DNA from: Sphingomonadales bacterium | GTDB lineage: Bacteria; Pseudomonadota; Alphaproteobacteria; Sphingomonadales; Sphingomonadaceae | NCBI GenBank assembly: GCA_013298745.1 | Contig: JAAFIT010000018.1 | Coordinates: forward strand, 1 to 13,756 | DNA length: 13,756 nt | Direction of reading: 5' to 3' | Part shown: positions 256 through 13,756 of the stretch, piece by piece | Layout: every line of letters starts with the position of its first letter | Position numbering within the stretch: the first letter of the stretch is position 1 | Translations under genes and position numbers: made by a program | The notes under the pieces: generated by a model | The model's database searches: none | What the model saw: the letters and a program-made list of their open reading frames with translations, nothing else | Told to the model about the DNA's origin: nothing

Positions 256-3200
256 GTGACATCGCGCTCGTTCACTCGAATTGCCACGTCGACAATTGCC
301 GTGGTCGTCATGCTGCTGTTTCTGGCGGCGGCGCCCGTGGTGTTTTTCCTGGTCAAGACCCAGAGCGAAACCCAGGCGCTGGCAGTGCTCGACGCCCATG
401 GCCGGACGGTGGCTGCCGACCAGCAGCACCGCTTCGACAAGATTGCTGCCGTCGAAACCGCAGCGATCGCAAATATGAAGATGCTCCTCGCCGCACCGCG
501 GACCGAAGCGAGAGCGAGCTTTGATCGGGATTTTCCGCTGCAAGCCGATGGGTCGCGGCGCAGCAGCCCGGCCTTGTTCGACGGCGAAGTCCGGCCAGAT
601 GGTGCGGTCATCAAGGATTTCGCCGGCTTCATCCCGAATGGTGCGGCGATGCCGGACAACCGGGTTCGCACATTGCTTGCCAGTTTCGATGCAATCCGTT
701 CAGTCGGCGGCGGTATGGCACCGGACCTCAGCAGCCTCTATTTCTTCTCGACCGACAATGATGTGATCATCCACGCGCTCAATCGGCCCGACAAATTGGG
801 CTTTTATCGCCAGACAGCGCCGGCGTCGTTCGATTTTCAGGATACCAACGTCGCCGAGATCATGAAGCCTGCCAACAACCCGCAGCGCGTGATGCGTTGC
901 ACCGATCTGGAGCCGGCAGCTTTTGATCCAAGCGGCAAGACCTGGACGACAGGGTGCATGACTCCAATCGATCTCGGCGGCCGTCACGTCGGCAGCTTCG
1001 GGGTCAGCCTGTTGCTCAATGAACTGCTGTCCGAAAACATGCCGACGGCGCCGCCGGACGCCGTGACGATGATTGTCGCGCGCGATGGCCGCTTAATCTA
1101 TGATCCAGCCCACACGCGTCAGCGGGACGCAGGGACGGCGCGCTTTCTCGATCTCACCAAAACCGATGATGCCCGGCTGCGCGCCGTCTGGCAGTTTTTG
1201 CAAAGCCAGGGCCAGACGAAGCACTATGCCGGCTATGTTCCTGGCCTTGCCGCCTATGTCACGCTCAATCCGGTGCCGACCCCCGGCTGGCAAGTGATCA
1301 CCTATTTCCCGCGCAATGTCGTGCTGGCGCAATCAGTGCGCGCCGCACTGGCGCTGCTTGTCACCGGCGCCATCATCGCCTTTGCGGCCATCGCACTGCT
1401 TTGGCATTTCATGCGTCGTACCGTCGGCCGACCGATGACCGCGCTGGCCAGCCGGGCCGAGGCGATTGCGACGCTATCGGGTGGCGCCCGCAGCGAAGCC
1501 GCAATCAATCCGGCGCTTCCCGAAGAAATCGCGCGGCTCAATGCCAGTTTCGATGTCATGGAAGCCGCCATTGCCGCCGAACGCGAACGCCTGACCCAGA
1601 CCTTCGAGGTTCTCGCCCAATCGGTCGAAAACCATGCGATTTACATGGTCGATGGCGACGGACGCATCACCAACTGGAACCGCGGCGCCGAGGCGATGAC
1701 AGGCTATGCCGCTGACGCCGCCATTGGCCAGCAGGTAACGCTCTTCACCGCGCCTGATGCCACGCCTGAAGAGGCCGCAGACCCGTTTGCCTTGCAGGCG
1801 CAAGCGCGCAAGGACGGCCGCGCCACGGCAGAAGGCTGGCGCCAACGCCGTGATGGCACCCGCTTCTGGGCCTCGGTCGTCACCGAAGCCATTCTCGATC
1901 CCGATGACAAGCTGATCGGCTTTGCCGAGATCATGCGCGATACCACCGACGAGCGGCAACGCCAGTTGCGTCTCGCCGAAAGTCTGCGACTACTCACGCT
2001 CGCCGAGGACATGGCGCAAATCGGCCATTGGCGGATGGAGTTGCCGGCTGGAACCGTAACATGGTCACCGGGCATGTACCGAATGCACGCGCTTGATCCC
2101 GGCCTGACGATCACCAGAGAGCTTGCCTTGAGTTTCTTTGATGCGGAGTCAGGTGCCGAGATCGAAGCCATGGTGACGCGCGCCATCAACAGCGGCAAAG
2201 GCGAGGCTCGGACGACGACTTTGCGACGCGCCGATGGCGTGTCTCGCCACATCGCCCTGCGCACCGTTCCCGAACTCGGCCCGACAGGACAGGTCGCGGC
2301 CATTTTCGGTGTCATGCGCGACGTGACCGAGGAAACCGAGGCTGCTGAGAAACTGATTGCGGCCCGTGAAGCCGCCGACGCTGCCGCCGAAGAGCGCACC
2401 ATGCTGCTGGCGACGATGAGCCATGAAATCCGCACGCCGATGACCGGGATCATCGGCATGCTCGACATGTTGCACGAAGGCGGTGGCAGCCTGCCACGCG
2501 GCATGTCGATCGGTAGCATCGCGCAATCGGCACGGACATTGATGGTGATTCTGGACGATGTGCTGGAACACAGCCGGATCGAAAGCGGCACGCTCCGGCT
2601 TGAAAATCTGGTCTTCGATCTTCCCGAACTGATGGAACAGACGGCACAGATGTTCCGGCCGCTTGCCAACGGCAAGAGCATAGCGATCACAGTCGAAGCC
2701 AGCGCGACGGGCAGCGGCGGCAATGGGCTGGTATCGGGCGACCCCTACCGTATTCAGCAGATCCTCTCCAACTTCGTCGGCAATGCCGTAAAGTTCACCG
2801 ATCGCGGCACGGTTCAGCTTCGCTGTCACTGGCCTGCGGCCGACAGCAGCGACACCATGGTCCGACTGGAAGTGCGGGACAGTGGCATCGGCATCGCCAA
2901 TTCCGTGCTGCCGACATTGTTCGAAACCTTCCGGCAGGCAGATACGACCATCGCACGCTCGCATGGCGGCAGTGGGTTGGGCCTTTCGATCTGCCGACGG
3001 CTGGCCACCGCCATGGGTGGCCAGATCGGTGCCGCCAGCACGATTGGCGAAGGCAGCAGTTTCTGGGTGGAACTGCCGCTGTCGCGCGCGCGCGAGGCCG
3101 ACCGCCCCGCAGCGCCAACAACTGTGTTGACTCGCGGCGGCGAGACACCGCGAGTCCTTGTCGTCGAAGACACGGAAACGACGCGAGCTTTGACGGCAGC

Positions 3201-3879
3201 GCAACTGACAGCGCTGGGATGCCGTGTCTCGACTGCCATCGACGGCATGTCCGCACTCGAATTTCTTGCGCGCCATCCCTTTGATGCCGTGATGCTCGAT
3301 CATCAGATGCCCGACATGAACGGTGCGACGACAGCGCGCCTCGTGCGTCTGCTGCCCGGGCCAGCAGGTCACGTACCGATGATCGGCTTTACTGCGGGCA
3401 CCAAGGACACAGCCCAAAAGATGCGCGATGCCGGCATCGACGACATTCTGATCAAACCCTTCGACCGCATCCGCCTTGCCGAACGGCTGCGGGCATCGCT
3501 CGAACGGCCTGTCTCCTCTGCCGACCGCGATCCCATCGAAACCATGAAGGATGTACTCGATGGCGTGCCGGCGGCAGCGCGGCAGCGCCTCGCAGGAAGC
3601 ATCGCATCCGATCTCGCACAGCAGTCCGCGGCACTCACCAAAGCACTGGAAGATACTGACGGCAAGGCGGCTGCCGCAGCTCTGCATGCGCTGGCAGGAG
3701 TCGCGATGACGATCGGACACAATGTTCTCGCTGACCGCTGCCGCTTCGCCGAAGCTGTGCTGGAGCAGTCCACGCCCGATCGTTGCGCTTGGTTGGCACC
3801 CATGATCGACGCCGCCATTGCGGCCGCACAATTGCAAATCGCCGCAGTGACCTCTGCCAGCGAAGGTGCCGCGTCATGA
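256..3879 (+). CDS. Membrane hybrid sensor histidine kinase (Cache-like, HAMP, PAS-PAS, HisKA, HATPase, REC, HPt)
   Basis: A 1207-residue hybrid kinase from a GTG start; an in-frame TAG at 214-216 limits the start, and GTG 256 keeps the first membrane helix (about 13-33) intact. A large extracytoplasmic region (about 35-358) resembles double-Cache sensors. It is followed by TM2 (about 363-386), HAMP (386-440), PAS1 (about 450-570, ending in a DTTDERQ hinge) and PAS2 (about 580-693). The HisKA motif MSHEIRTPM has H723. The HATPase has N843 in the N box, DSGIG at 875-879 and GGSGLGLS at 904-911. The receiver has E971/D972, phospho-acceptor D1015 (MLDHQMPDMNG), T1046 and K1067. The C-terminal HPt domain has H1144 in LHALAGVAMTIG, where the family's usual Lys after HxL is Ala. 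All parts needed for an internal His-Asp-His relay are present. It overlaps the next gene by ATGA, so the two are probably co-translated. The ligand is unknown; a link to the downstream H-NOX is inferred from context. Confidence 0.93.
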   Translation: MTSRSFTRIATSTIAVVVMLLFLAAAPVVFFLVKTQSETQALAVLDAHGRTVAADQQHRFDKIAAVETAAIANMKMLLAAPRTEARASFDRDFPLQADGSRRSSPALFDGEVRPDGAVIKDFAGFIPNGAAMPDNRVRTLLASFDAIRSVGGGMAPDLSSLYFFSTDNDVIIHALNRPDKLGFYRQTAPASFDFQDTNVAEIMKPANNPQRVMRCTDLEPAAFDPSGKTWTTGCMTPIDLGGRHVGSFGVSLLLNELLSENMPTAPPDAVTMIVARDGRLIYDPAHTRQRDAGTARFLDLTKTDDARLRAVWQFLQSQGQTKHYAGYVPGLAAYVTLNPVPTPGWQVITYFPRNVVLAQSVRAALALLVTGAIIAFAAIALLWHFMRRTVGRPMTALASRAEAIATLSGGARSEAAINPALPEEIARLNASFDVMEAAIAAERERLTQTFEVLAQSVENHAIYMVDGDGRITNWNRGAEAMTGYAADAAIGQQVTLFTAPDATPEEAADPFALQAQARKDGRATAEGWRQRRDGTRFWASVVTEAILDPDDKLIGFAEIMRDTTDERQRQLRLAESLRLLTLAEDMAQIGHWRMELPAGTVTWSPGMYRMHALDPGLTITRELALSFFDAESGAEIEAMVTRAINSGKGEARTTTLRRADGVSRHIALRTVPELGPTGQVAAIFGVMRDVTEETEAAEKLIAAREAADAAAEERTMLLATMSHEIRTPMTGIIGMLDMLHEGGGSLPRGMSIGSIAQSARTLMVILDDVLEHSRIESGTLRLENLVFDLPELMEQTAQMFRPLANGKSIAITVEASATGSGGNGLVSGDPYRIQQILSNFVGNAVKFTDRGTVQLRCHWPAADSSDTMVRLEVRDSGIGIANSVLPTLFETFRQADTTIARSHGGSGLGLSICRRLATAMGGQIGAASTIGEGSSFWVELPLSRAREADRPAAPTTVLTRGGETPRVLVVEDTETTRALTAAQLTALGCRVSTAIDGMSALEFLARHPFDAVMLDHQMPDMNGATTARLVRLLPGPAGHVPMIGFTAGTKDTAQKMRDAGIDDILIKPFDRIRLAERLRASLERPVSSADRDPIETMKDVLDGVPAAARQRLAGSIASDLAQQSAALTKALEDTDGKAAAAALHALAGVAMTIGHNVLADRCRFAEAVLEQSTPDRCAWLAPMIDAAIAAAQLQIAAVTSASEGAAS

Positions 3880-5537
3880 CTCCGATCAATGACACGCCTG
3901 ATCCGCAATTGGCCTTGTTGGAACGCCGGTTGCGCCGCGCCGAAGCCGCTCGTCTGGAAGCGGAGAGACTGTTGGAATGGCGTTCGCGTGAACTGGACCG
4001 CTCCAATCGCGAATTGCGCCAGCGCGAGAATGAACTTGTGGCCCGGCTTGATGTCGGGAACCGCAATCTGCTGGAAGCCCAACGCCTGGCCGGTATGGCG
4101 ACATTTTACGGCATCGTCGGTGACAGTTTTCGCGCCTCGCCTGCCATGGCGGCGTTGTTCGGACGACCGGATGGCGATGTGCCCACCATCGGCGATGTTG
4201 CCGCCGCGCTGCATCCGCTCGATCGCGAGCGCATCATTGCTGTACAGCAGCGCTTTTTCAGCCAGGCCCCGCCAGGTGCCGAACAAAGCCATGAATGTCG
4301 TATCATCCGCACTGATGGTGCCGTCCGCTGGCTCCGCTGGTATGCGCGCCGCGATGCCAGTGCGGATGCCGGCCCGGGACCGATTTCGGGAACCGTGCAG
4401 GACATTACCGAGCAACGCCGCACCGAACGCCGGGCCCGCGCCCTGCAACTGATCAGCGAGCGCAACCTTGCGCGCTTGCGGCACACCGAGGCGGCGTTGG
4501 CCGAACGGGTCGTTGAACTCGAACGCGCTGCCACGGCGCTGGCAGCCAGCCACACCCGCACTGAGGCTGCACAACGTGCCAAATCGCGTTTTTTGTCGCA
4601 AATGAGTCACAACATCCGCACCCCCATGAACGGCGTGCTTGGCATGATGACCGCGTTGGCACGGACCACGCTCGACACCAGCCAGGCCGACATGCTGGCG
4701 CGCGCGCGGCGGGCCGGTGACGAATTGCGTGCACTTGTCGACAATATCATCGACATTGCCGATGAAGGCATTGCCACCGTGGCAACGGGCGAAGCCGCTG
4801 CCTCGCCGCTGTCAACGTCGGAAATTCGCGTCGATGGCCGGCGGCCGAGGATCCTTGTCGCCGAGGACATCGAAACCAATCAGATTGTCATCTGCTCGAT
4901 GCTGGATACCTTGGGTTGTGATCACAGCGTCGTCGGCAATGGCGCTTTGGCCGTCGAAGCCGTGCAGACCGAAAGCTTCGACGCGGTCCTCATGGATATC
5001 CAAATGCCGGTGATGGACGGCACCGCTGCGACGCGGGCCATTCGTGCCCTGCCGGGGCCGGTGGCACGGCTGCCGATTATCGGCATCACCGCCCAGGCCG
5101 TCGCTGCCGAGCGGGAAGTGCTGAAGATGGCAGGGATGAATCTGTGCCTCGCCAAACCGATTTCAGTGGCGATGCTGGCGGCGGCTCTGCATGAATCGCT
5201 CCCGGCCGAGGCCATGCTCGACGGTCCGGTGTTCGATAGTGCCATCAACGCGCTGCCCGTTGCACGGCGTCCCGCCCTGATCGACCAGATTGCCCGCGAT
5301 CTGGCGGCCTTGTCCGCCGCGCTCACCGCCGCCACTGTCGCCGATGATCCGGACGCCGTGCGGCGCGCGCGCCACAGCCTTGATGGGATCGCCAGCAATT
5401 TCGGTGCCATCGCGCTGATGGAATGGCTTGGCGCCAGCCGCGCCTCGCCGGTGCCCGCAGCAGACACCCTGCCCCGGCTCGAAGCGATCGTCGCGGCAAC
5501 GATCGCCGAAGCGCGGACGCGTCTGAAGCACGGCTGA
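3876..5537 (+). CDS. Soluble PAS-DHp-REC-HPt phosphorelay protein without an ATPase domain
   Basis: 553 residues from the ATG that overlaps the preceding kinase stop (ATGA); AAGG at 3863-3866 can serve as ribosome site. No membrane helix or signal peptide. Order: N-terminal coiled coil rich in Arg/Glu/Leu (about 10-75), a PAS domain (about 85-190, ending GTVQDITEQRR), a second coiled coil (about 190-240), and a HisKA-like DHp segment with H245 in MSHNIRTPMNG. The receiver has E330/D331, phospho-acceptor D374 (LMDIQMPVMDG) and K427. The C-terminal HPt domain has H500 in RHSLDGIASNFG, with the usual Lys replaced by Asp. Only about 75 residues separate H245 from the receiver and no N, G1 or G2 box is present, so the HATPase domain is missing. 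The acidic residue normally following the DHp His is Asn246. It is therefore probably a phosphotransfer hub or pseudokinase that works with the upstream kinase and perhaps with the H-NOX protein. Confidence 0.88.
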   Translation: MTPINDTPDPQLALLERRLRRAEAARLEAERLLEWRSRELDRSNRELRQRENELVARLDVGNRNLLEAQRLAGMATFYGIVGDSFRASPAMAALFGRPDGDVPTIGDVAAALHPLDRERIIAVQQRFFSQAPPGAEQSHECRIIRTDGAVRWLRWYARRDASADAGPGPISGTVQDITEQRRTERRARALQLISERNLARLRHTEAALAERVVELERAATALAASHTRTEAAQRAKSRFLSQMSHNIRTPMNGVLGMMTALARTTLDTSQADMLARARRAGDELRALVDNIIDIADEGIATVATGEAAASPLSTSEIRVDGRRPRILVAEDIETNQIVICSMLDTLGCDHSVVGNGALAVEAVQTESFDAVLMDIQMPVMDGTAATRAIRALPGPVARLPIIGITAQAVAAEREVLKMAGMNLCLAKPISVAMLAAALHESLPAEAMLDGPVFDSAINALPVARRPALIDQIARDLAALSAALTAATVADDPDAVRRARHSLDGIASNFGAIALMEWLGASRASPVPAADTLPRLEAIVAATIAEARTRLKHG

Positions 5538-5553
5538 CCGCCTGCCCGCGGCG

Positions 5554-5566
5554 TTGCGAAATGCTT
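5554..5566 (+). promoter_or_regulatory. LuxO-like operator repeat, copy 1 (degenerate)
   Basis: TTGCGAAATGCTT resembles the TTGCA-N3-TGCAA form of the two better copies. It has the G instead of A in the left arm and TT instead of AA at the right end. Its centre is 21 bp (two helical turns) from copy 2. It overlaps a candidate terminator stem, so it is the least certain copy. Confidence 0.35.
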
Positions 5567-5576
5567 CGCTTTTTTT
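5556..5576 (+). terminator. Possible Rho-independent terminator of the kinase operon
   Basis: GCGAA-ATGC-TTCGC (5556-5569) can fold into a 5 bp stem with a 4 nt loop, directly followed by seven T (5570-5576), 18 bp after the stop of the phosphorelay gene. The stem is short, and the same bases form the weakest of the three operator-like repeats, so either role is possible. Confidence 0.4.
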
Positions 5577-5587
5577 GCAAAATGCGA
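5575..5587 (+). promoter_or_regulatory. LuxO-like operator repeat, copy 2
   Basis: TTGCAAAATGCGA matches TTGCA-N3-TGCAA at all but one of the ten arm positions. Its centre (5581) is about 85 bp upstream of the transcription start expected from the sigma54 element, a usual enhancer distance. Confidence 0.55.
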
Positions 5588-5591
5588 TAAT

Positions 5592-5604
5592 TTGCAGAAT
5601 GCAA
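5592..5604 (+). promoter_or_regulatory. LuxO-like operator repeat, copy 3 (perfect palindrome)
   Basis: TTGCAGAATGCAA is a perfect 5-3-5 inverted repeat and agrees with the TTGCA-N3-TGCAA operator known for Vibrio LuxO. Its centre is 17 bp from copy 2 and about 68 bp upstream of the predicted start of transcription. The activator encoded in the controlled operon is LuxO-like, so it is the natural candidate to bind here. Confidence 0.62.
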
Positions 5605-5638
5605 TCGCGCTTTCGCCTCGGATCTGCTTGTGGGTCGC

Positions 5639-5656
5639 TTGGCACGCCTCTTGCTT
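5639..5656 (+). promoter_or_regulatory. Sigma54 (RpoN) -24/-12 promoter of the hnoX operon
   Basis: TTGGCACGCCTCTTGCTT agrees with the sigma54 consensus TTGGCACG-N4-TTGCW throughout. The invariant GG (5641-5642) and GC (5653-5654) are separated by the required 10 bp. Transcription should begin near 5666, leaving a leader of about 24 nt that holds the AAAGGAAG ribosome site of hnoX. The operon it drives encodes a sigma54-type activator. Confidence 0.85.
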
Positions 5657-5689
5657 GGCAGTGCTGCGTGCCGAGTTCAAAGGAAGCTG

Positions 5690-6229
5690 ATGAAGGGTGT
5701 CATTTTCACCGAACTGGTGAGCTATATGGAAACCGTGCACGGCGTGGCGTTCGCCGATGCCGTGATTTCCGAAAGCCGGCTCCCCAACGATGGAGCCTTC
5801 ACCAGCGTCGGCAATTATCCCAGTCAGCAAGCGCTGACGATGGTCGAGGTCGCAGCACGGCTCAGCGGCACCGACGGCGCTGTTCTGTGCGAGGACTATG
5901 GCGCCTGGCTGTTCGGCCGCTTTGGCGTGTTGTTCCCGACCATCATGGCGAAGTATCCCACGGCGGAATCGCTGCTGATGCACGTTGGCAGCCACATCCA
6001 TGAAGAGGTGCGCATTCTCTATCCTGATGCACGCCCGCCGGAAATCACGGCTGAAAACGCCGGTGACACGATGATCGTGCGCTATCGCTCACACCGTCCG
6101 ATGGCGCATATTGCGTATGGCCTCATCCGCCAGTGCCTGGTCGATTATGGTGAACCCCGAATTGTACGCTGGCATGGGAGCGGTCGCGCCGACGAAGCCA
6201 CATTCATCATCGCAGCTTCGGACGCATAG
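5690..6229 (+). CDS. hnoX: H-NOX (HNOB) heme nitric oxide sensor
   Basis: A stand-alone heme-NO/oxygen-binding protein of 179 residues, the usual length for bacterial H-NOX. The start ATG is preceded by AAAGGAAG (5679-5686), and the N-terminus MKGVIFTEL is typical of the family. The proximal heme ligand is H104 in SHIHEEVRILYP, followed by the conserved Pro of DARPPE (P116/P117). The heme-propionate motif YxSxR is Y132-R-S134-H-R136. By alignment in the head with the Thermoanaerobacter (Caldanaerobacter) H-NOX, the O2-stabilising pocket residues Trp9, Asn74 and Tyr140 correspond to Leu9, Leu74 and Ile141. This predicts a protein that binds NO (and CO) but not O2. It is cytoplasmic, with no signal peptide. 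Bacterial H-NOX proteins of this type usually sit next to a histidine kinase and control its activity; here kinases lie upstream and a response regulator 2 bp downstream. It is probably transcribed from the sigma54 promoter. Confidence 0.92.
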   Translation: MKGVIFTELVSYMETVHGVAFADAVISESRLPNDGAFTSVGNYPSQQALTMVEVAARLSGTDGAVLCEDYGAWLFGRFGVLFPTIMAKYPTAESLLMHVGSHIHEEVRILYPDARPPEITAENAGDTMIVRYRSHRPMAHIAYGLIRQCLVDYGEPRIVRWHGSGRADEATFIIAASDA

Positions 6230-6231
6230 CC

Positions 6232-7644
6232 ATGTCCACCATCGCCCGCATCCTGGTTGTCGAAGATATTGCTTCGCTGGCGATGACCTATGCGGCGCAG
6301 CTGGAAGCGATTGGTCATAAGGTCGACATTGCCGATTGCGGTACTGCCGCCTCGGCGGCGATCGCTGCAGCCGACACGCAGCCCTATGATGTCATGCTGC
6401 TCGATCTACAGTTGCCGGATTGCGATGGCCTCGATTGGCTGGCGGCAGCCGAGGGCTTGCTTGCCAAGACCAGTGTCATCGTCGTTACCGCCGATGGCTC
6501 GGTGTCGCGCGCCATCGAAGCGATGCGGCTTGGCGCCTATGATTTTCTCGTCAAGCCGCTTGCCGCCGAACGGTTGACGACCACGGTGCGCAACGCTGTC
6601 GAGCGCCGGCGGCTCGAACGCGAAGTCGAAGCCGGCCGCAAACTGGTGGCGCGCGACCGTTTCCAGGGCTTTGTCGGCCGCAGCAACTTGATGCAGACCG
6701 TGTACCGGACGATCGAGAGCGTGGCCGATTCACGTGCGACAGTCTTCATCACGGGCGAAAGCGGCACCGGCAAGGAAGTCGCCGCCGAAGCGATCCATCA
6801 ATGCAGTCGCCGCAAGACCGGGCGTTTTGTGGCGATCAATTGCGGCGCAATCCCGGAGAATCTGCTCGAATCGGAACTCTTCGGCCATTTGAAAGGCGCT
6901 TTCACCGGCGCTATCGAAAATCGTATCGGAGCCGCTGCCGAAGCTGATGGCGGCACGCTGTTTCTCGATGAAATCTGCGAGATGGAACTGAAGCTTCAGG
7001 TCAAGCTGCTGCGCTTCCTGCAAACGGGCATGATCCAGCGGGTCGGCAGCAGCCGCGCCGAACCAGTCGATGTCCGCGTCATCTGCGCCACCAATCGCGA
7101 CCCGGCTGCCGAAGTTGCCGCCGGCCGTTTCCGTGAGGACCTGTATTACCGCCTTGCCGTCATCCCGCTCGAACTCCCCCCCTTGCGTGATCGCGGCGAC
7201 GACGTGCTGCTGCTCGCCCAGGATTTTCTCGATCGGTTCGCCGAACAGGAAAACAAGCACTTCAACCCGCTTGATGAAACGGTCGCGAACGCATTGATGG
7301 CCAGCAACTGGCCGGGAAATGTTCGCGAGTTGCAAAACGTCATCCGGCGCGCTGTCGTGATGAACCCAGGGCCAGCATTGAGCGTCACGGCTTTTGCCAC
7401 GCCCTCGGCCACGCCCGCGCAACCCGGGATGACGATCGCGGGTGAAGCGGCCGGGCATGAAACATCGCCCCTCCTCGCCGACGCGCTTGCCGGAATGACC
7501 CTCGATGCCATCGAGCGTTGGGCAATCGAAGCCGCGATCGCCCGTTCGGGTGGCAACATGCGCAAGGCCGCGCACACCCTGGGTCTCAGCCCGTCAACAC
7601 TCTATCGCAAGCGCGAGCGCTGGGCCGATACGCTGACACAATAG
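6232..7644 (+). CDS. LuxO/NtrC-type sigma54-dependent response regulator
   Basis: 470 residues, starting 2 bp after the hnoX stop, so translation is probably coupled. The N-terminal receiver (about 5-118) has E12/D13 (VVEDI), phospho-acceptor D58 (LLDLQLPDCDG) and K108 (FLVKPL). The central AAA+ domain (about 145-375) has Walker A GESGTGKE (175-182), the sigma54-contacting GAFTGA loop (222-227), Walker B TLFLDE (D246/E247) and the WPGNVRELQN sensor-2 region. The C-terminal Fis-type helix-turn-helix (about 424-465) reads GGNMRKAAHTLGLSPSTLYR, very close to LuxO. It should open sigma54 promoters when phosphorylated by the HPt domains of the upstream proteins. The sigma54 promoter and LuxO-type sites ahead of hnoX suggest positive autoregulation. 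Other targets are not visible in the window. LuxO itself is a Vibrio quorum-sensing regulator; orthology is inferred only. Confidence 0.92.
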   Translation: MSTIARILVVEDIASLAMTYAAQLEAIGHKVDIADCGTAASAAIAAADTQPYDVMLLDLQLPDCDGLDWLAAAEGLLAKTSVIVVTADGSVSRAIEAMRLGAYDFLVKPLAAERLTTTVRNAVERRRLEREVEAGRKLVARDRFQGFVGRSNLMQTVYRTIESVADSRATVFITGESGTGKEVAAEAIHQCSRRKTGRFVAINCGAIPENLLESELFGHLKGAFTGAIENRIGAAAEADGGTLFLDEICEMELKLQVKLLRFLQTGMIQRVGSSRAEPVDVRVICATNRDPAAEVAAGRFREDLYYRLAVIPLELPPLRDRGDDVLLLAQDFLDRFAEQENKHFNPLDETVANALMASNWPGNVRELQNVIRRAVVMNPGPALSVTAFATPSATPAQPGMTIAGEAAGHETSPLLADALAGMTLDAIERWAIEAAIARSGGNMRKAAHTLGLSPSTLYRKRERWADTLTQ

Positions 7645-7982
7645 CGCCCGCAATATTGCCGCACGGTCGTTGGCACCGCGTCTCTTGTCCTCAATCAGCC
7701 ATGCCGACACGCCGTCAACGTCGATGACGGCCCCAACCAAGCCGCCCCAATACGCGCGCTTCGGGACGTGGGAACAATGAAAACCAATTGCCTTCTCAGG
7801 AGCGTTGGCCAAGACTATTGTTCCGACGCCTCCGGCAACGTCGTGCAGCCTAAAGCAGCATTCCAATGCGAAACTGCACGGGCATGACCAGGAAAAGAGA
7901 ACAGCGTCACGGCGGCTGGTCAGGCGGCAACCGACTGTTGCATTGATTGCGGGTGGCACGATGGTTGGAGAGGGGCAGGCCA
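7645..7982. other. Gene-poor gap after the activator gene
   Basis: 338 bases without a convincing gene. The palindrome GCAATATTGC sits at 7650-7659 without a T-run. A minus-strand frame reading into the end of the activator gene encodes a protein-like stretch (complement of about 7650-7825, for example HVPKRAYWGGLVGAVIDVDG), but upstream of it the frame turns into low-quality Ser/Cys-rich sequence, so at most it is a decayed gene end. TGGCACGATGGTTGG at 7954-7968 resembles sigma54 DNA but lacks the -12 GC. Confidence 0.4.
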
Positions 7983-8987
7983 ATGAAACAGACGGCAGAC
8001 TGGAGCTGGAGTCCGGCGATCGGTCGCTGGACCCCAAGTCATGGTCTTCCGAGCCTTGCGACGCGAGTCGACGTATCGACAAAGAACATTCACCCGGCTG
8101 ATGCCTTTGGCTGGTGGCGGGATACAGCTTGTTACGAATGGACGCCGAACCAACCGGAGCTTGGCAGCCCCTTCTCTGCCGTCGCTACCGGCATTATCGC
8201 GCGTGATGCTGAGTTCTATCAATATGGCATCAGTGCGCTTGATGGCGAACGCAGCCGTTCGCAATTGCTATCTGATGGCCATGCCAACCTGAGTATAGGC
8301 GTGGTGTGCAGTGGCGTGCGCTGTGCCGTGTCGAATGGCGACCAGTCTGTTCGAGCGCGTCGTGGCGAGGTTTTTGTCCATGATGCGGGGCGACCTTCCC
8401 AGCTTTCCTGGAGCGACGGTGGCGGTGTTCATCTGATGGTACGGCGCCATGTCGCCGAAAGCATCTTCGGTCCGGCGCTGCCGCCGCCATCGCAACTCGC
8501 AGCAATGGTGATGGCCAATCCGCTCTTCGGACACTGGCGCAGGCAGATGATGCTGCTTGGCCGAATACCGGCCTCTGCCGGTTCCGCAGACCTTGGCTTT
8601 GCGCTCGATCAACTGGCTGGACTGACCCGGTTCCTGCTGAACCAGGCCAATCCGGGGCGAAGGCCCTTGCGCGCCGCTGCAATGGCCATGATCGAAACCA
8701 ATCTTTCCAATCCGCGATTGTCGCCGCGCTGGCTGGCCGGTCAGCTGGGTTGCTCGCGTGCGAGCCTCTACCGTGCTTTCGCCGACGATGCCGGCGGGGT
8801 AGCGCAGATCATCGCGGATCTGCGCTATGCCGAGGCGTGGCGACGGCTGGCCGGCAACCGCGATGCTCGTGTTGCGGACGTCGCAGTGGCCTGTGGCTTG
8901 TTCGATACCGTGAATTTCAGTCGCGCCTTCCGGCAGCGGTTCGGTATCACTCCCACCGATGCCCGCATGCTGCTGCGCGCGCGTTGA
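7983..8987 (+). CDS. AraC-family transcriptional regulator
   Basis: 334 residues from ATG 7983, preceded by GAGAGGGGCAGG; a TTG at 7947 would add 12 residues. The N-terminal half (about 25-190) resembles the AraC-binding-like (cupin-type) sensor domain found in FeaR-like regulators. The C-terminal third carries the double helix-turn-helix of the family: LAGQLGCSRASLYRAFADD from residue 251, and VADVAVACGLFDTVNFSRAF from 297, followed by FGITPTDAR. It is a one-component DNA-binding regulator; the inducer cannot be told. The divergence from known members is too great to assign targets, but the next gene, in the same direction and with direct repeats in its upstream region, is a candidate. Confidence 0.88.
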   Translation: MKQTADWSWSPAIGRWTPSHGLPSLATRVDVSTKNIHPADAFGWWRDTACYEWTPNQPELGSPFSAVATGIIARDAEFYQYGISALDGERSRSQLLSDGHANLSIGVVCSGVRCAVSNGDQSVRARRGEVFVHDAGRPSQLSWSDGGGVHLMVRRHVAESIFGPALPPPSQLAAMVMANPLFGHWRRQMMLLGRIPASAGSADLGFALDQLAGLTRFLLNQANPGRRPLRAAAMAMIETNLSNPRLSPRWLAGQLGCSRASLYRAFADDAGGVAQIIADLRYAEAWRRLAGNRDARVADVAVACGLFDTVNFSRAFRQRFGITPTDARMLLRAR

Positions 8988-9129: not shown

Positions 9130-9816
9130 ATGAAGTATTCCTTTATCATCGCTACTGCGATGGCTGGCAGTCTTTCGGTTACATCGCACGCAGCAACTTA
9201 TTACGGATCGATTCGTGTCGACCACCCTTTCAATGCCACAGTAATATTTTCACAGACGCAGACAACAGGGCCACTGAACTTTGCTGCCTCTGCCGGCACG
9301 GTCTCGGCTTTTGTCGCGTCGAACGACGCCAACAACGGCACCGTCGTCGCATCGGCAACGTCCACGTCGAACCCGTTTTACGTTGAGGCAATTTACACGG
9401 CACCCTTGCTTTTTACCGGGCCTGCCGGTTCCTCGGCGCGGGTCAGCATGAGGGCGATCGGTCAGATCGCCGCGATGGGAAGGGCCCATGCAAATGCGCT
9501 TTTCAGGGTCCAGAATGGTTCGACCGAAATCTTCAGAGCCTTTCGTGGCATCGATCCGGACGCAGCGAGCCGGATAGCGACGATCAACTGGTCGACCAGC
9601 TTTACGCTGCCGGCCAATACGCCCTTCACCTACACCCTCAACGCTTGGACACGCTCTGCCGGCTCGATGGCTTCGGGCTATGCGTTTCTTGATCCGATCA
9701 TCACCTTCTCGCCGTCGTCGGCTGTGCCGGAACCTGGTTCATGGGCGATGCTGATCGTTGGCTTTGGCCTTGTCGGCGCCACCATAAGGCGCAAAGCGGG
9801 CGCTGCGGCCGCCTAG
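9130..9816 (+). CDS. Secreted PEP-CTERM sorting-domain protein
   Basis: 228 residues with a good ribosome site AGGAGA at 9118-9123. Residues 1-22 form a signal peptide (MKYSFIIATAMAGSLSVTSHA, cut probably after SHA). The body (about 23-195) is rich in Ser, Thr, Ala and Asn, predicted to be beta-rich, and resembles no enzyme I know. The C-terminus has the tripartite sorting signal: PEP at 200-202, a hydrophobic helix WAMLIVGFGLVGA (205-217) and the basic tail RRK (220-222). In bacteria with exosortase and extracellular polysaccharide, such proteins are processed at the PEP motif and delivered to the cell surface or matrix. The WAMLIxGFGLVG form is characteristic of sphingomonads. Function of the mature part is unknown; the exosortase is not in the window. 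Confidence 0.88.
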   Translation: MKYSFIIATAMAGSLSVTSHAATYYGSIRVDHPFNATVIFSQTQTTGPLNFAASAGTVSAFVASNDANNGTVVASATSTSNPFYVEAIYTAPLLFTGPAGSSARVSMRAIGQIAAMGRAHANALFRVQNGSTEIFRAFRGIDPDAASRIATINWSTSFTLPANTPFTYTLNAWTRSAGSMASGYAFLDPIITFSPSSAVPEPGSWAMLIVGFGLVGATIRRKAGAAAA

Positions 9817-10233: not shown

Positions 10234-10785
10234 TTGATTGGCGAAGCTTTGCGCCTGATTGTTCGCGAACTCGATTCTGCGCTGCAACGGCAAGCGCCTG
10301 GAGCCGGCAACGTTGCCGTGCTCACCAACCTTGTCGACGCCAATGGCGCGGCGGTGCCGGAGGCTGCTGAAAAGGTTGCGGTGTTTGTCGTGGATATCTC
10401 GCAGGAGAACATCCCGACGCGGTTACCGCGTGTTTTGCCGGGCAATGGGCAGAATTTCACGCAGCAACAACCGCCGGTGCATCTCAGCCTGCAGGTCATG
10501 TGCGCCGCCAACTTCAGCGGATCGACCTATGATGAAGCCCTGACGCGCATTTCCGGTACTGTTGCGTTCTTTCAGGGCTGCCCGTTGTTCACCGCGCAGA
10601 ATACACCGGGGCTTCCGGATGGAATCGCGCAACTGACGATGACGATCGAAAACCTCAATGCAGTCGATCTGAGCCATATCTGGTCGATCCACGGCGGCCG
10701 CTATCTGCCTTCGGTGCTATATCGCATGCGTGTGCTCAGCATCGATGCTGGCCGCATCGAGGCGCAGCCACGTGCCGTAGAGTGA
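10234..10785 (+). CDS. DUF4255 / Pvc16-like tail terminator protein
   Basis: 183 residues from a TTG start with a strong ribosome site AGGGGAGG (10221-10228), 5 bp upstream; the resulting MIGEALRLIVRELD fits the family's N-terminus. Recognisable family features are PPVHLSLQVMCAANF in the middle, YDEAL (99-103) followed by GTVAFFQGCPLFTAQN, and the closing block RYLPSVLYRMRVLSID (156-171). DUF4255 (Pvc16 N-terminal domain) proteins cap the tube and sheath of extracellular contractile injection systems such as the Photorhabdus virulence cassette, ending tail growth. They are normally found beside sheath, tube, LysM and baseplate genes. Here only the next gene accompanies it, so it may be a remnant or act with structural genes elsewhere. 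Family call is confident; the role in this genome is inferred. Confidence 0.82.
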   Translation: MIGEALRLIVRELDSALQRQAPGAGNVAVLTNLVDANGAAVPEAAEKVAVFVVDISQENIPTRLPRVLPGNGQNFTQQQPPVHLSLQVMCAANFSGSTYDEALTRISGTVAFFQGCPLFTAQNTPGLPDGIAQLTMTIENLNAVDLSHIWSIHGGRYLPSVLYRMRVLSIDAGRIEAQPRAVE

Positions 10786-12606: not shown

Positions 12607-13569
12607 TTATTGGCGTTGTAGCGGCTCGATCAGCATGCCCCAATACATCTCTGCCGCGCCTTCCTGGGATAGCTTTTCTTCGTCGCTTCGTCCTTGAAAA
12701 CGAGCCATGCCCATGCTGCGCAGGAACAGCATCTGATCGTCAGCATTGATACTGAGGCATTCATTGAACGAATTGCTCTCGCTGGTCTCGTTGGAAGTGT
12801 AAGCGATCCCGTTGACGAACGACCGTGAGCCAATGAAGATCGTACAGCGCGCAACAGATTTGCCATTTCGGTAGACGACGGCGCTGAAGCGGTTGGCGTC
12901 AATCCGCCGGCAAGTCGTCTCGATTCCCGCGTTTCTGGCCTCAAGTTCGCCAAGCGAGTTCTCAAAAAACCGGGCGATGAAGTCGAAGGTTTCGAGCTTG
13001 AAGGCGTCTTTGTCGCGCTCGGTGAATTGCTTCGTCATGCGCAGATTGCTTGATCGCGGCGCAACGGCTGCGGCGACGGGAACCGCCCGTGGCTTTGCCG
13101 CAGCAGCCGGTGCCGATGGCGCACTCACCTTTTGGAGGCGCTCAGCTGCCCCCCGAATGGACTTGGCCACCTCTAGGAATGCTTGATCGCGGTCGGGCCA
13201 TTGGGTCACCGGACGACCATCGGTCGGGCTGGCAAGCAACTTGCCGAAGGGTGCGTGATGCCAATCGCAAGCCCTCAGGATGACCGGTATAACGATGGCG
13301 TTCTTCGCCTCATGGCGTTCCATCGCGCGGGTCATTTCTCGCTCATAGCAATAGTCAGAGGCGATGAAGTCCGGACTGACAAGCAACAGAATGATGTCCG
13401 CCGCCTCCATGTTGGTGGCGATGGCCTGGTCGATTTCCTGACCTCCGCCAATTCGGCGGTCATGCCATGTCGTAATGACCCCTTGCCGCTTCAGCATGGC
13501 GAGCTGCTTTTCTAGCTGATCGCGCAACGCTTCGTCAGCATGGGAGTAAGAAAAAAACAGCGCAATCAC
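12607..13569 (-). CDS. TIR-domain protein with an uncharacterised C-terminal domain
   Basis: 320 residues from GTG 13569, chosen because GAGAGG (13581-13576) lies 6 bp upstream and the result, MIALFFSYSHADE, is a usual TIR start; a TTG at 13599 would add 10 residues. The TIR_2-type domain (about 1-130) shows FFSYSHADE, WHDRRIGGG, ILLLVSPDFIASDYC and IPVILRACDW. Glu78 in SDYCYEREM sits where NAD-cleaving TIR domains carry their catalytic Glu. An Ala/Pro-rich linker (about 146-175) leads to a C-terminal domain (about 180-320) that I cannot identify, with FFENSLGELEARN and NEDQ-type polar stretches. Bacterial TIR proteins of this plan often deplete NAD+ in anti-phage defence, with the second domain sensing the trigger. 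It lies between an unidentified gene end and a coupled orphan gene on what looks like an integrated element. Defence is inferred, not shown. Confidence 0.87.
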   Translation of the reverse strand: MIALFFSYSHADEALRDQLEKQLAMLKRQGVITTWHDRRIGGGQEIDQAIATNMEAADIILLLVSPDFIASDYCYEREMTRAMERHEAKNAIVIPVILRACDWHHAPFGKLLASPTDGRPVTQWPDRDQAFLEVAKSIRGAAERLQKVSAPSAPAAAAKPRAVPVAAAVAPRSSNLRMTKQFTERDKDAFKLETFDFIARFFENSLGELEARNAGIETTCRRIDANRFSAVVYRNGKSVARCTIFIGSRSFVNGIAYTSNETSESNSFNECLSINADDQMLFLRSMGMARFQGRSDEEKLSQEGAAEMYWGMLIEPLQRQ

Positions 13570-13588
13570 GGGCGACCTCTCGTCAAAT

Positions 13589-13756
13589 TCAAATGCCAAC
13601 TGGCTCTTTAGTACTTTGTCTCAACATAGAAGCCATGCCTTCCACTACACTGGTATTGGCGTAAGCAGCCGGCACGGCGGGCATTACCCCACCGACGAGC
13701 CAATCAAAGAATGCGGGCAACTCATTCCAGAAAGCGTCAACCGATGGCAAAGCTGG
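13589..13756 (-). CDS. C-terminal end of an unidentified gene upstream of the TIR gene
   Basis: A minus-strand frame open from the window edge to TGA at 13591-13589 encodes 55 residues, including SVDAFWNELPAFFDWLVGG and ending STKEPVGI. The composition is protein-like, and the stop lies 19 bp before the GTG start of the TIR gene, where the TIR ribosome site also lies. This arrangement fits an operon of which this is the first or an earlier gene. I do not recognise the family from this fragment. Confidence 0.6.
   Translation of the reverse strand, partial: PALPSVDAFWNELPAFFDWLVGGVMPAVPAAYANTSVVEGMASMLRQSTKEPVGI

Follow-up and report, generated by a model that had tools for sequence, protein, structure and literature searches.

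Two Vibrio phosphorelays, HahK/SypF/SypG and HqsK/LuxU/LuxO, are on our best reading the nearest working models for the four-gene H-NOX locus described here, in which such parts occur in a new arrangement. The locus lies in a 13,756-nucleotide stretch of DNA (the window) that is a whole contig (JAAFIT010000018.1, here G000:C90) of a draft sphingomonad assembly (completeness 78.8%, contamination 5.34%), and it consists of genes for a hybrid histidine kinase (P1), an ATPase-less relative of hybrid kinases (P2), H-NOX (a predicted nitric oxide (NO)/heme sensor) and a LuxO-like sigma54 activator. Excerpts of published accounts describe, in V. harveyi and V. parahaemolyticus, H-NOX, a hybrid kinase, a histidine phosphotransfer (HPt) protein, a LuxO-type sigma54 regulator and TTGCA-N3-TGCAA boxes, all with counterparts in our locus (PMC3759921, PMC8738867, PMC3352281). 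In that system, however, the targets of LuxO are the qrr RNAs of quorum sensing and a separate protein, LuxU, provides the HPt, whereas the window regulator stands beside H-NOX under LuxO-type boxes, the relay lacks an ATPase domain and matrix genes are near in relatives. In V. fischeri, according to parts of two papers (PMC12369376, PMC10162802), the NO sensor HnoX acts on the hybrid kinase HahK, the HPt comes from a second hybrid kinase (SypF), and the LuxO paralogue SypG is the activator with a polysaccharide (syp) output. The same excerpts name Zur, not SypG, as a controller of hnoX transcription, and the gene arrangement is unlike that of the window. The Shewanella H-NOX/HnoK system is similar in that its regulator, HnoC, feeds back on the hno regulon, as stated in an excerpt of PMC8738867. 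HnoC is a repressor relieved by phosphorylation, whereas the window regulator is a predicted sigma54 activator.

The RcsC-RcsD-RcsB system likewise has a live hybrid kinase and a neighbouring degenerate kinase carrying an HPt; however, RcsD is not known to have a receiver or a DHp histidine, both of which are found in P2, and the Rcs output and sensor are unrelated. SypF, unlike P2, is not known to be ATPase-less. In the open-licence literature we found no paper joining H-NOX with PEP-CTERM and nothing joining three of heme NO-binding, LuxO, exopolysaccharide and Sphingomonadaceae. Further, among open-licence titles on H-NOX in Sphingomonas, Novosphingobium and Halomonas exopolysaccharide, and on RpoN with polysaccharide, none dealt with the system of the window.

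On balance, we consider it probable that the locus is a NO-responsive phosphorelay with a self-activating LuxO-type output over extracellular matrix genes. P1 would use ATP and so be the phosphoryl source. P2 would act as the relay, taking phosphate from P1 and passing it through its HPt histidine H500 to D58 of the regulator, and would most likely be the protein to which H-NOX docks. The phosphorylated regulator would then bind tandem TTGCA-N3-TGCAA boxes and drive sigma54 promoters, namely that of its own H-NOX-regulator operon and those of polysaccharide or PEP-CTERM genes. If Vibrio is a guide, H-NOX with NO bound would lower the phosphate flow and hence matrix expression. The parts of this scheme that are read from the sequence itself are the domain make-up, the promoter with its boxes, the polysaccharide linkage in relatives and the lack of an ATPase domain in P2.

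A first-pass annotation of the window had placed the hybrid kinase, the ATPase-less protein, H-NOX and the LuxO-like activator in a row, and domain searches bore this out; the residues that it named (P1 H723 and H1144, P2 H500 and regulator D58) were likewise correct. P1 (256..3879, forward strand; GTG start, 1207 aa) comprises a weak dCache N-terminal sensor region, two PAS stretches, DHp H723, an intact HATPase domain with every ATP motif, receiver (REC) D1015 and HPt H1144. Its PAS, HisKA, HATPase_c and REC domains scored over the Pfam cut-offs and dCache and HPt under them, although the HPt passed (27.1 bits) when one genome was scanned alone. Because the window is a whole contig, only 255 bp of sequence precede P1. 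P2 (3876..5537, forward strand; 553 aa) most likely starts at the ATG at 3876, overlapping the P1 stop, and has the layout coiled coil-PAS-DHp (H245, with Asn next)-REC (D374)-HPt (H500). Pfam found PAS_3, HisKA and REC, with HPt under its cut-off, and neither Pfam nor the alignment showed in it an HATPase domain with its N, G1, F and G2 motifs. Judged from its sequence, the window P2 is thus not a kinase.

The window H-NOX (5690..6229, forward strand; most likely start ATG 5690) is a member of its family by the HNOB match (PF07700, 88.1 bits; cut-off 25.5). The candidate proximal histidine, H104, aligns with the histidine of the Shewanella-type chain 6bde. Y132, S134 and R136 are present, and there is no Tyr at R+5, a position that we take to be read by the distal-Tyr rule. 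Among related H-NOX proteins, the proximal histidine was found in 40 of 41 and the Y, S and R of YxSxR in all 41. The regulator (6232..7644, forward strand) starts with an ATG 2 bases past the H-NOX stop and has a REC-AAA-Fis helix-turn-helix (HTH) layout in which the phospho-Asp (D58), Walker A (175), GAFTGA (222) and an HTH with SPSTLYRK are all present. Against 112 NCBIfam models it scored best with LuxO (532 bits, under the equivalog cut-off of 800), and against PDB sequences with V. angustum LuxO (386.7 bits; the next protein, an NtrC-family regulator, 300). By these scores it is LuxO-like but short of a LuxO equivalog. Identity with the PEP-CTERM regulator PrsR (TIGR02915) was rejected, as its 408.2 bits fell below both the cut-off (502.6) and the LuxO score.

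We then compared P2 with its relatives. A second copy of part of the locus occurs in the same assembly on contig C353 (3.1 kb, locus L026), where P2 and H-NOX are followed by a regulator gene cut after residue 217, the DNA being 86% identical to the window; since the assembly contamination is 5.34%, this copy may be from a contaminating relative or second species. Among 18 aligned P2 relatives, 7 had an intact ATPase domain; in the other 11 the N, G1, F and G2 motifs were lost or broken, these being the window, C353, G008, G013, G015, G017, G018, G023, N. beihaiensis, Halomonas and Salinicola forms. The domain was wholly gone in four of these (window, C353, G008 and G015), and a Pfam HATPase was undetected in 10 of the 11, G017 being the exception. 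All 11 retained the DHp histidine and the receiver Asp; the HPt histidine was recognised by motif in 10 and by reading the tail in N. beihaiensis. The DHp histidine is followed by Asp in the G013, G017, G018, G023, N. beihaiensis and Halomonas forms, by Asn in those of the window, C353 and Salinicola, and by Lys in those of G008 and G015. P1 adjoins P2 upstream in 9 of the 11, while contig C353 stops before that place and the Salinicola P2 has no P1.

The dN/dS ratio of P2 against the C353 copy was 0.10 for the whole protein and the DHp alike, indicating purifying selection, and the possibility that P2 is a pseudogene was therefore rejected. In the P2 phylogeny the forms without the domain made one clade (support 100/99), and the broken-domain forms were not recovered as one. 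An AlphaFold model of P2 (mean pLDDT 79.8, pTM 0.33, which backs the domains and not their arrangement) showed a full DHp hairpin, a low-confidence linker (299-324) at the place of the ATPase domain, and then the receiver and HPt; the 50 matches listed by Foldseek for this model were to receiver, PAS and LOV-kinase structures. The view of P1-P2 as a private invention of the genus was dropped, as the pair occurs in N. beihaiensis and Halomonas and P2 alone in Salinicola. Among the relatives the kinase is live in some, has a broken ATPase domain in others and lacks the domain in the rest, a natural series that offers a way into H-NOX action without a kinase partner. Tentatively, NO sensing in this lineage may have shifted from a working kinase onto a dead one: H-NOX would control an ATPase-less relay and thereby gate phosphate from an unrelated membrane kinase to the LuxO-type activator, an AND gate (outside signal and NO) for an exopolysaccharide/PEP-CTERM matrix, the P2 kinase domain having decayed after a second kinase arrived next door.

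The first-pass annotation had described tight spacing. This holds for the P1/P2 and H-NOX/regulator junctions but not for P2 and H-NOX, which are 152 bp apart. Because this gap holds a sigma54 promoter and LuxO boxes, the locus may have two transcription starts. The gap contains a perfect TTGCA-N3-TGCAA box (TTGCAGAATGCAA, 5592..5604), a box with one mismatch (TTGCAAAATGCGA, 5575..5587) and a weak third, LuxO-like box found by eye (TTGCGAAATGCTT, 5554..5566; three mismatches), followed by a perfect sigma54 promoter on the forward strand (TGGCACGCCTCTTGCT, 5640..5655), 50 bp ahead of the H-NOX ATG. The consensus sequences were taken from excerpts of PMC3352281 (Vibrio-type LuxO box) and PMC10162802. 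A similar arrangement precedes H-NOX in the C353 copy, G008, G015 and G009.

To place these sites in a wider set, we scanned the regions upstream of 41 H-NOX genes, of which 26 belong to the 30 best regulator loci and 15 come from elsewhere, each genome being counted once (L328/L333 and L329/L167 were judged from their lengths to be the same contigs). The regulator gene is directly beside H-NOX in 36 of them (it is cut by the contig end in the C353 copy), 3-5 kb away in three (L173-L175) and 13 kb away in G009; it was not seen on the 7.9-kb contig of the remaining one (L172). A LuxO box with at most one mismatch occurred in 37 of the 41 regions (70 boxes, 31 perfect), the boxes mostly standing 17-23 bp apart, whereas each of the other 59 palindromes made from the same half-site letters gave at most 2. 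When the spacer was varied from 0 to 8, spacer 3 gave the 70 matches and the others at most 8. A sigma54 element with at most two mismatches lay 47-95 bp ahead of the start in 34 regions and was missing in seven (L297, L306, L037 of G023, L039 of G017, L040 of G013, L325 and L327). G023 instead has a two-mismatch element ahead of an inserted glycosyltransferase gene, and L325 (Halomonas) has a two-mismatch element and three boxes just outside the 130-bp limit of the scan.

A joint scan for boxes plus promoter gave no match in 2.17 Mb (strand-bases) from 69 loci of unrelated, mostly low-GC taxa, and none in 1.44 Mb of first-order Markov resamplings of twelve 20-kb sphingomonad and Halomonas stretches. 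Cassette-free genomes of the genus (0.34 Mb, 72 loci) gave one match, with the lowest passing score, at a PEP-CTERM promoter of G014 (L160). Tandem-box matches in cassette-free genomes were never on both strands and were set aside; both-strand matches occurred in the cassette-bearing G000, G008, G009, G013 and G017, those of G017 having no promoter in the stretches examined and perhaps being unrelated. Three H-NOX genes without a LuxO-like gene in their 1.5-kb flanks (L027, L288 and L289) had neither box nor element within 300 bp upstream, and L288 and L289 showed a stray single box or element beyond that distance. The boxes are thus present and specific at H-NOX promoters, and the regulator would bind them. 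The Vibrio LuxO box is seen here outside Vibrio, at H-NOX genes, and the predicted sites define a testable regulon.

The gene order is not unique to the window. Among 24 genomes of the genus, P1-P2-H-NOX-regulator occurs in four (G000, G013, G017 and G018), and G023 has the same genes with one GT2 glycosyltransferase between P2 and H-NOX. G008 and G015 have the P1-P2 pair on one contig and the H-NOX-regulator pair on another, G009 has H-NOX with an intact kinase and a separate HPt, and G016 has a lone divergent H-NOX. In total, H-NOX was found in nine genomes, the regulator (E<=1e-100) in eight, all within those nine, and P1-P2 pairs in seven, all within the eight with the regulator. Across the order the regulator (E<=1e-110) occurs in 83 of 396 genomes and 33 of 84 genera, and in the 30 best regulator loci (window included) H-NOX is directly upstream in 26, of which 21 have a joint box and sigma54 match. 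The earlier remark that LuxO quorum circuits are not the norm in sphingomonads is corrected in that H-NOX-adjacent LuxO-like regulators are not exceptional there.

The locus had also been called self-contained. H-NOX, relay and LuxO-type sigma54 output are indeed packed together, but the H-NOX and LuxO-like pair is usually beside exopolysaccharide genes, in Halomonas and Salinicola as well, and predicted targets with box and promoter lie elsewhere. A polysaccharide-export-type gene was present in the 1.5-kb flanks of 25 of the 30 best regulator loci. In 20-kb stretches of Halomonas litopenaei, Salinicola aestuarinus, N. beihaiensis, Aurantiacibacter marinus and one uncultured member of the Sphingomonadaceae we found a common cluster of a P2-family kinase, a WecG/bacterial-sugar-transferase fusion gene, GT2-type genes, a gene that we label Wzc-like (the Pfam search gave no family), a polysaccharide-export gene, and then H-NOX and the regulator; P1 is upstream of the P2-family kinase in Halomonas and N. 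beihaiensis. The compact form in the window looks like the two regulatory ends of this cluster joined, with the GT2 gene of G023 as a remnant. H-NOX is thus tied to exopolysaccharide and to surface proteins of the exosortase type within a large environmental family.

Predicted sites also precede genes of these clusters. The twelve 20-kb stretches held 13 joint sites, eight before H-NOX, four before the WecG-type gene (WecG/Bac_transf) and one near the end of L336; without the one repeat among these stretches (L333 = L328), 12 are distinct, seven of them before H-NOX. A Poly_export gene, an ATP-grasp gene and the regulator gene likewise have joint sites ahead of them in L173/L174, and G009 has boxes shared between the regulator gene and a Poly_export-like gene. 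Within the genus, only G008, G009 and G015 yielded a WecG-type gene (E<=1e-60). The window's own genome has a second candidate target on G000:C350, where boxes with one or two mismatches are followed by TGGCACAAATCATGCA (one mismatch to the sigma54 pattern) and a gene for a secreted protein, cut by the contig end, that matches a PEP-CTERM protein encoded by a boxed gene of G018 with 53% identity across 264 aa. An olfactomedin-like domain scored over the Pfam cut-off in the G018 protein only. Boxed PEP-CTERM genes are present in G013, G018 and G023.

RpoN dependence of a PEP-CTERM gene is known from an excerpt of PMC9850573. We scored boxes within 200 bp of perfect sigma54 sites in 80 regions; promoters with less than 150 bp upstream were dropped, and G013 and several cassette-free genomes were under-sampled. 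The following counts are among the matches listed. At PEP-CTERM promoters of cassette-bearing genomes a box with at most one mismatch occurred in 3 of 22 (0.45 expected), and with at most two in 6 of 22 (3.2 expected). None of 15 flagellar and glnK promoters of these genomes had a box with at most one mismatch. In cassette-free genomes 7 of 46 sigma54 promoters had one with at most two mismatches (about 4.7 expected). L110 has an additional boxed promoter whose unfinished reading frame bears a PEP-CTERM motif, and the genes behind L116 and the boxed second promoter of L114 could not be named. PEP-CTERM sigma54 promoters are widespread in the genus, whether or not a genome has the cassette; in L047/L286 (G000:C297), L098 and L106, adjacent PEP-CTERM-type genes each have their own. 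In the cassette-free G014 (L159/L160), two PEP-CTERM promoters have TTACACTTTGC-like sites in common at -57/-58, to which another activator may bind. The window holds a PEPxxWA-CTERM surface protein gene (9130-9816; PF07589, 31.9 bits) two genes downstream of the regulator.

Several observations weigh against the proposed phosphorelay. The H-NOX upstream regions of G013 and G017 have no recognisable sigma54 element, and that of G013 also has no box. The WecG-type gene was not found, at the threshold given above, in the window's incomplete genome or in G013, G017, G018 and G023, and the window PEP-CTERM gene at 9130 has no sigma54/LuxO-box promoter ahead of it. None of the 46 listed sigma54 promoters of all kinds in cassette-free genomes had a box with at most one mismatch, though PEP-CTERM genes were included. 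Because these genomes have PEP-CTERM sigma54 promoters without boxes, another activator would also serve such genes; PEP-CTERM genes as a simple sigma54 regulon of the LuxO-like regulator were thus rejected, and the assignment was kept for boxed genes only. In the G017 P2, Pfam still recognises an ATPase domain (36.9 bits; cut-off 26.4), with N, G1 and G2 altered and F absent, and the description of P2 as a clean dead kinase in every relative was corrected for this damaged form. Finally, P2 is perhaps dispensable as a relay, because P1 has its own HPt.

This last point bears on a different reading, which we regard as rather unlikely, in which H-NOX acts on P1 and the HPt of P1 feeds the regulator, P2 being a side branch whose receiver and HPt drain the relay, as a sink for phosphate or as a phosphatase. 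An acidic residue after the DHp histidine is needed for histidine phosphorylation, and the Thr of the H-x-x-R-T motif serves phosphatase activity. P1 has an intact kinase, receiver and HPt; P2 retains that Thr, and in the four forms that lack an ATPase domain altogether its DHp histidine is followed by Asn or Lys. However, in N. beihaiensis and Halomonas P1 combines HATPase and receiver with a tail of about 100 residues in which Pfam sees no HPt and the HPt histidine motif is absent, and therefore the HPt of P2 is the sole one seen there. Further, seven of the eight P2-family kinases without a neighbouring P1 are intact, some of them in clusters with H-NOX. A mixed P1-P2 dimer, tuned by H-NOX, in which the P1 ATPase phosphorylates the P2 DHp histidine in trans, seems to us less likely still. 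The DHp histidine kept in all 11 defective P2 proteins and the full DHp hairpin ahead of the linker in the AlphaFold model would suit it, but the P2 proteins of the window, C353, G008, G015 and Salinicola have lost the acidic residue, and the Salinicola P2 has no adjoining P1. That four regulatory genes from unrelated pathways became neighbours by chance is hardly credible, for although the two pairs are on different contigs in G008 and G015, the order is shared by several genomes, the genes co-occur strictly in the genus, Halomonas and Salinicola have the common cluster, and regulator-type boxes stand at the H-NOX promoter.

The LuxO-like gene is followed by one for an AraC-type regulator (7947-8987). 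A Pvc16_N domain protein (99 bits), of a family that we take to belong to contractile-injection or phage-tail-like particles, is encoded at 10234-10785, and a TIR-domain protein (TIR_2, 58 bits), possibly related to defence, on the reverse strand at 12607-13599.

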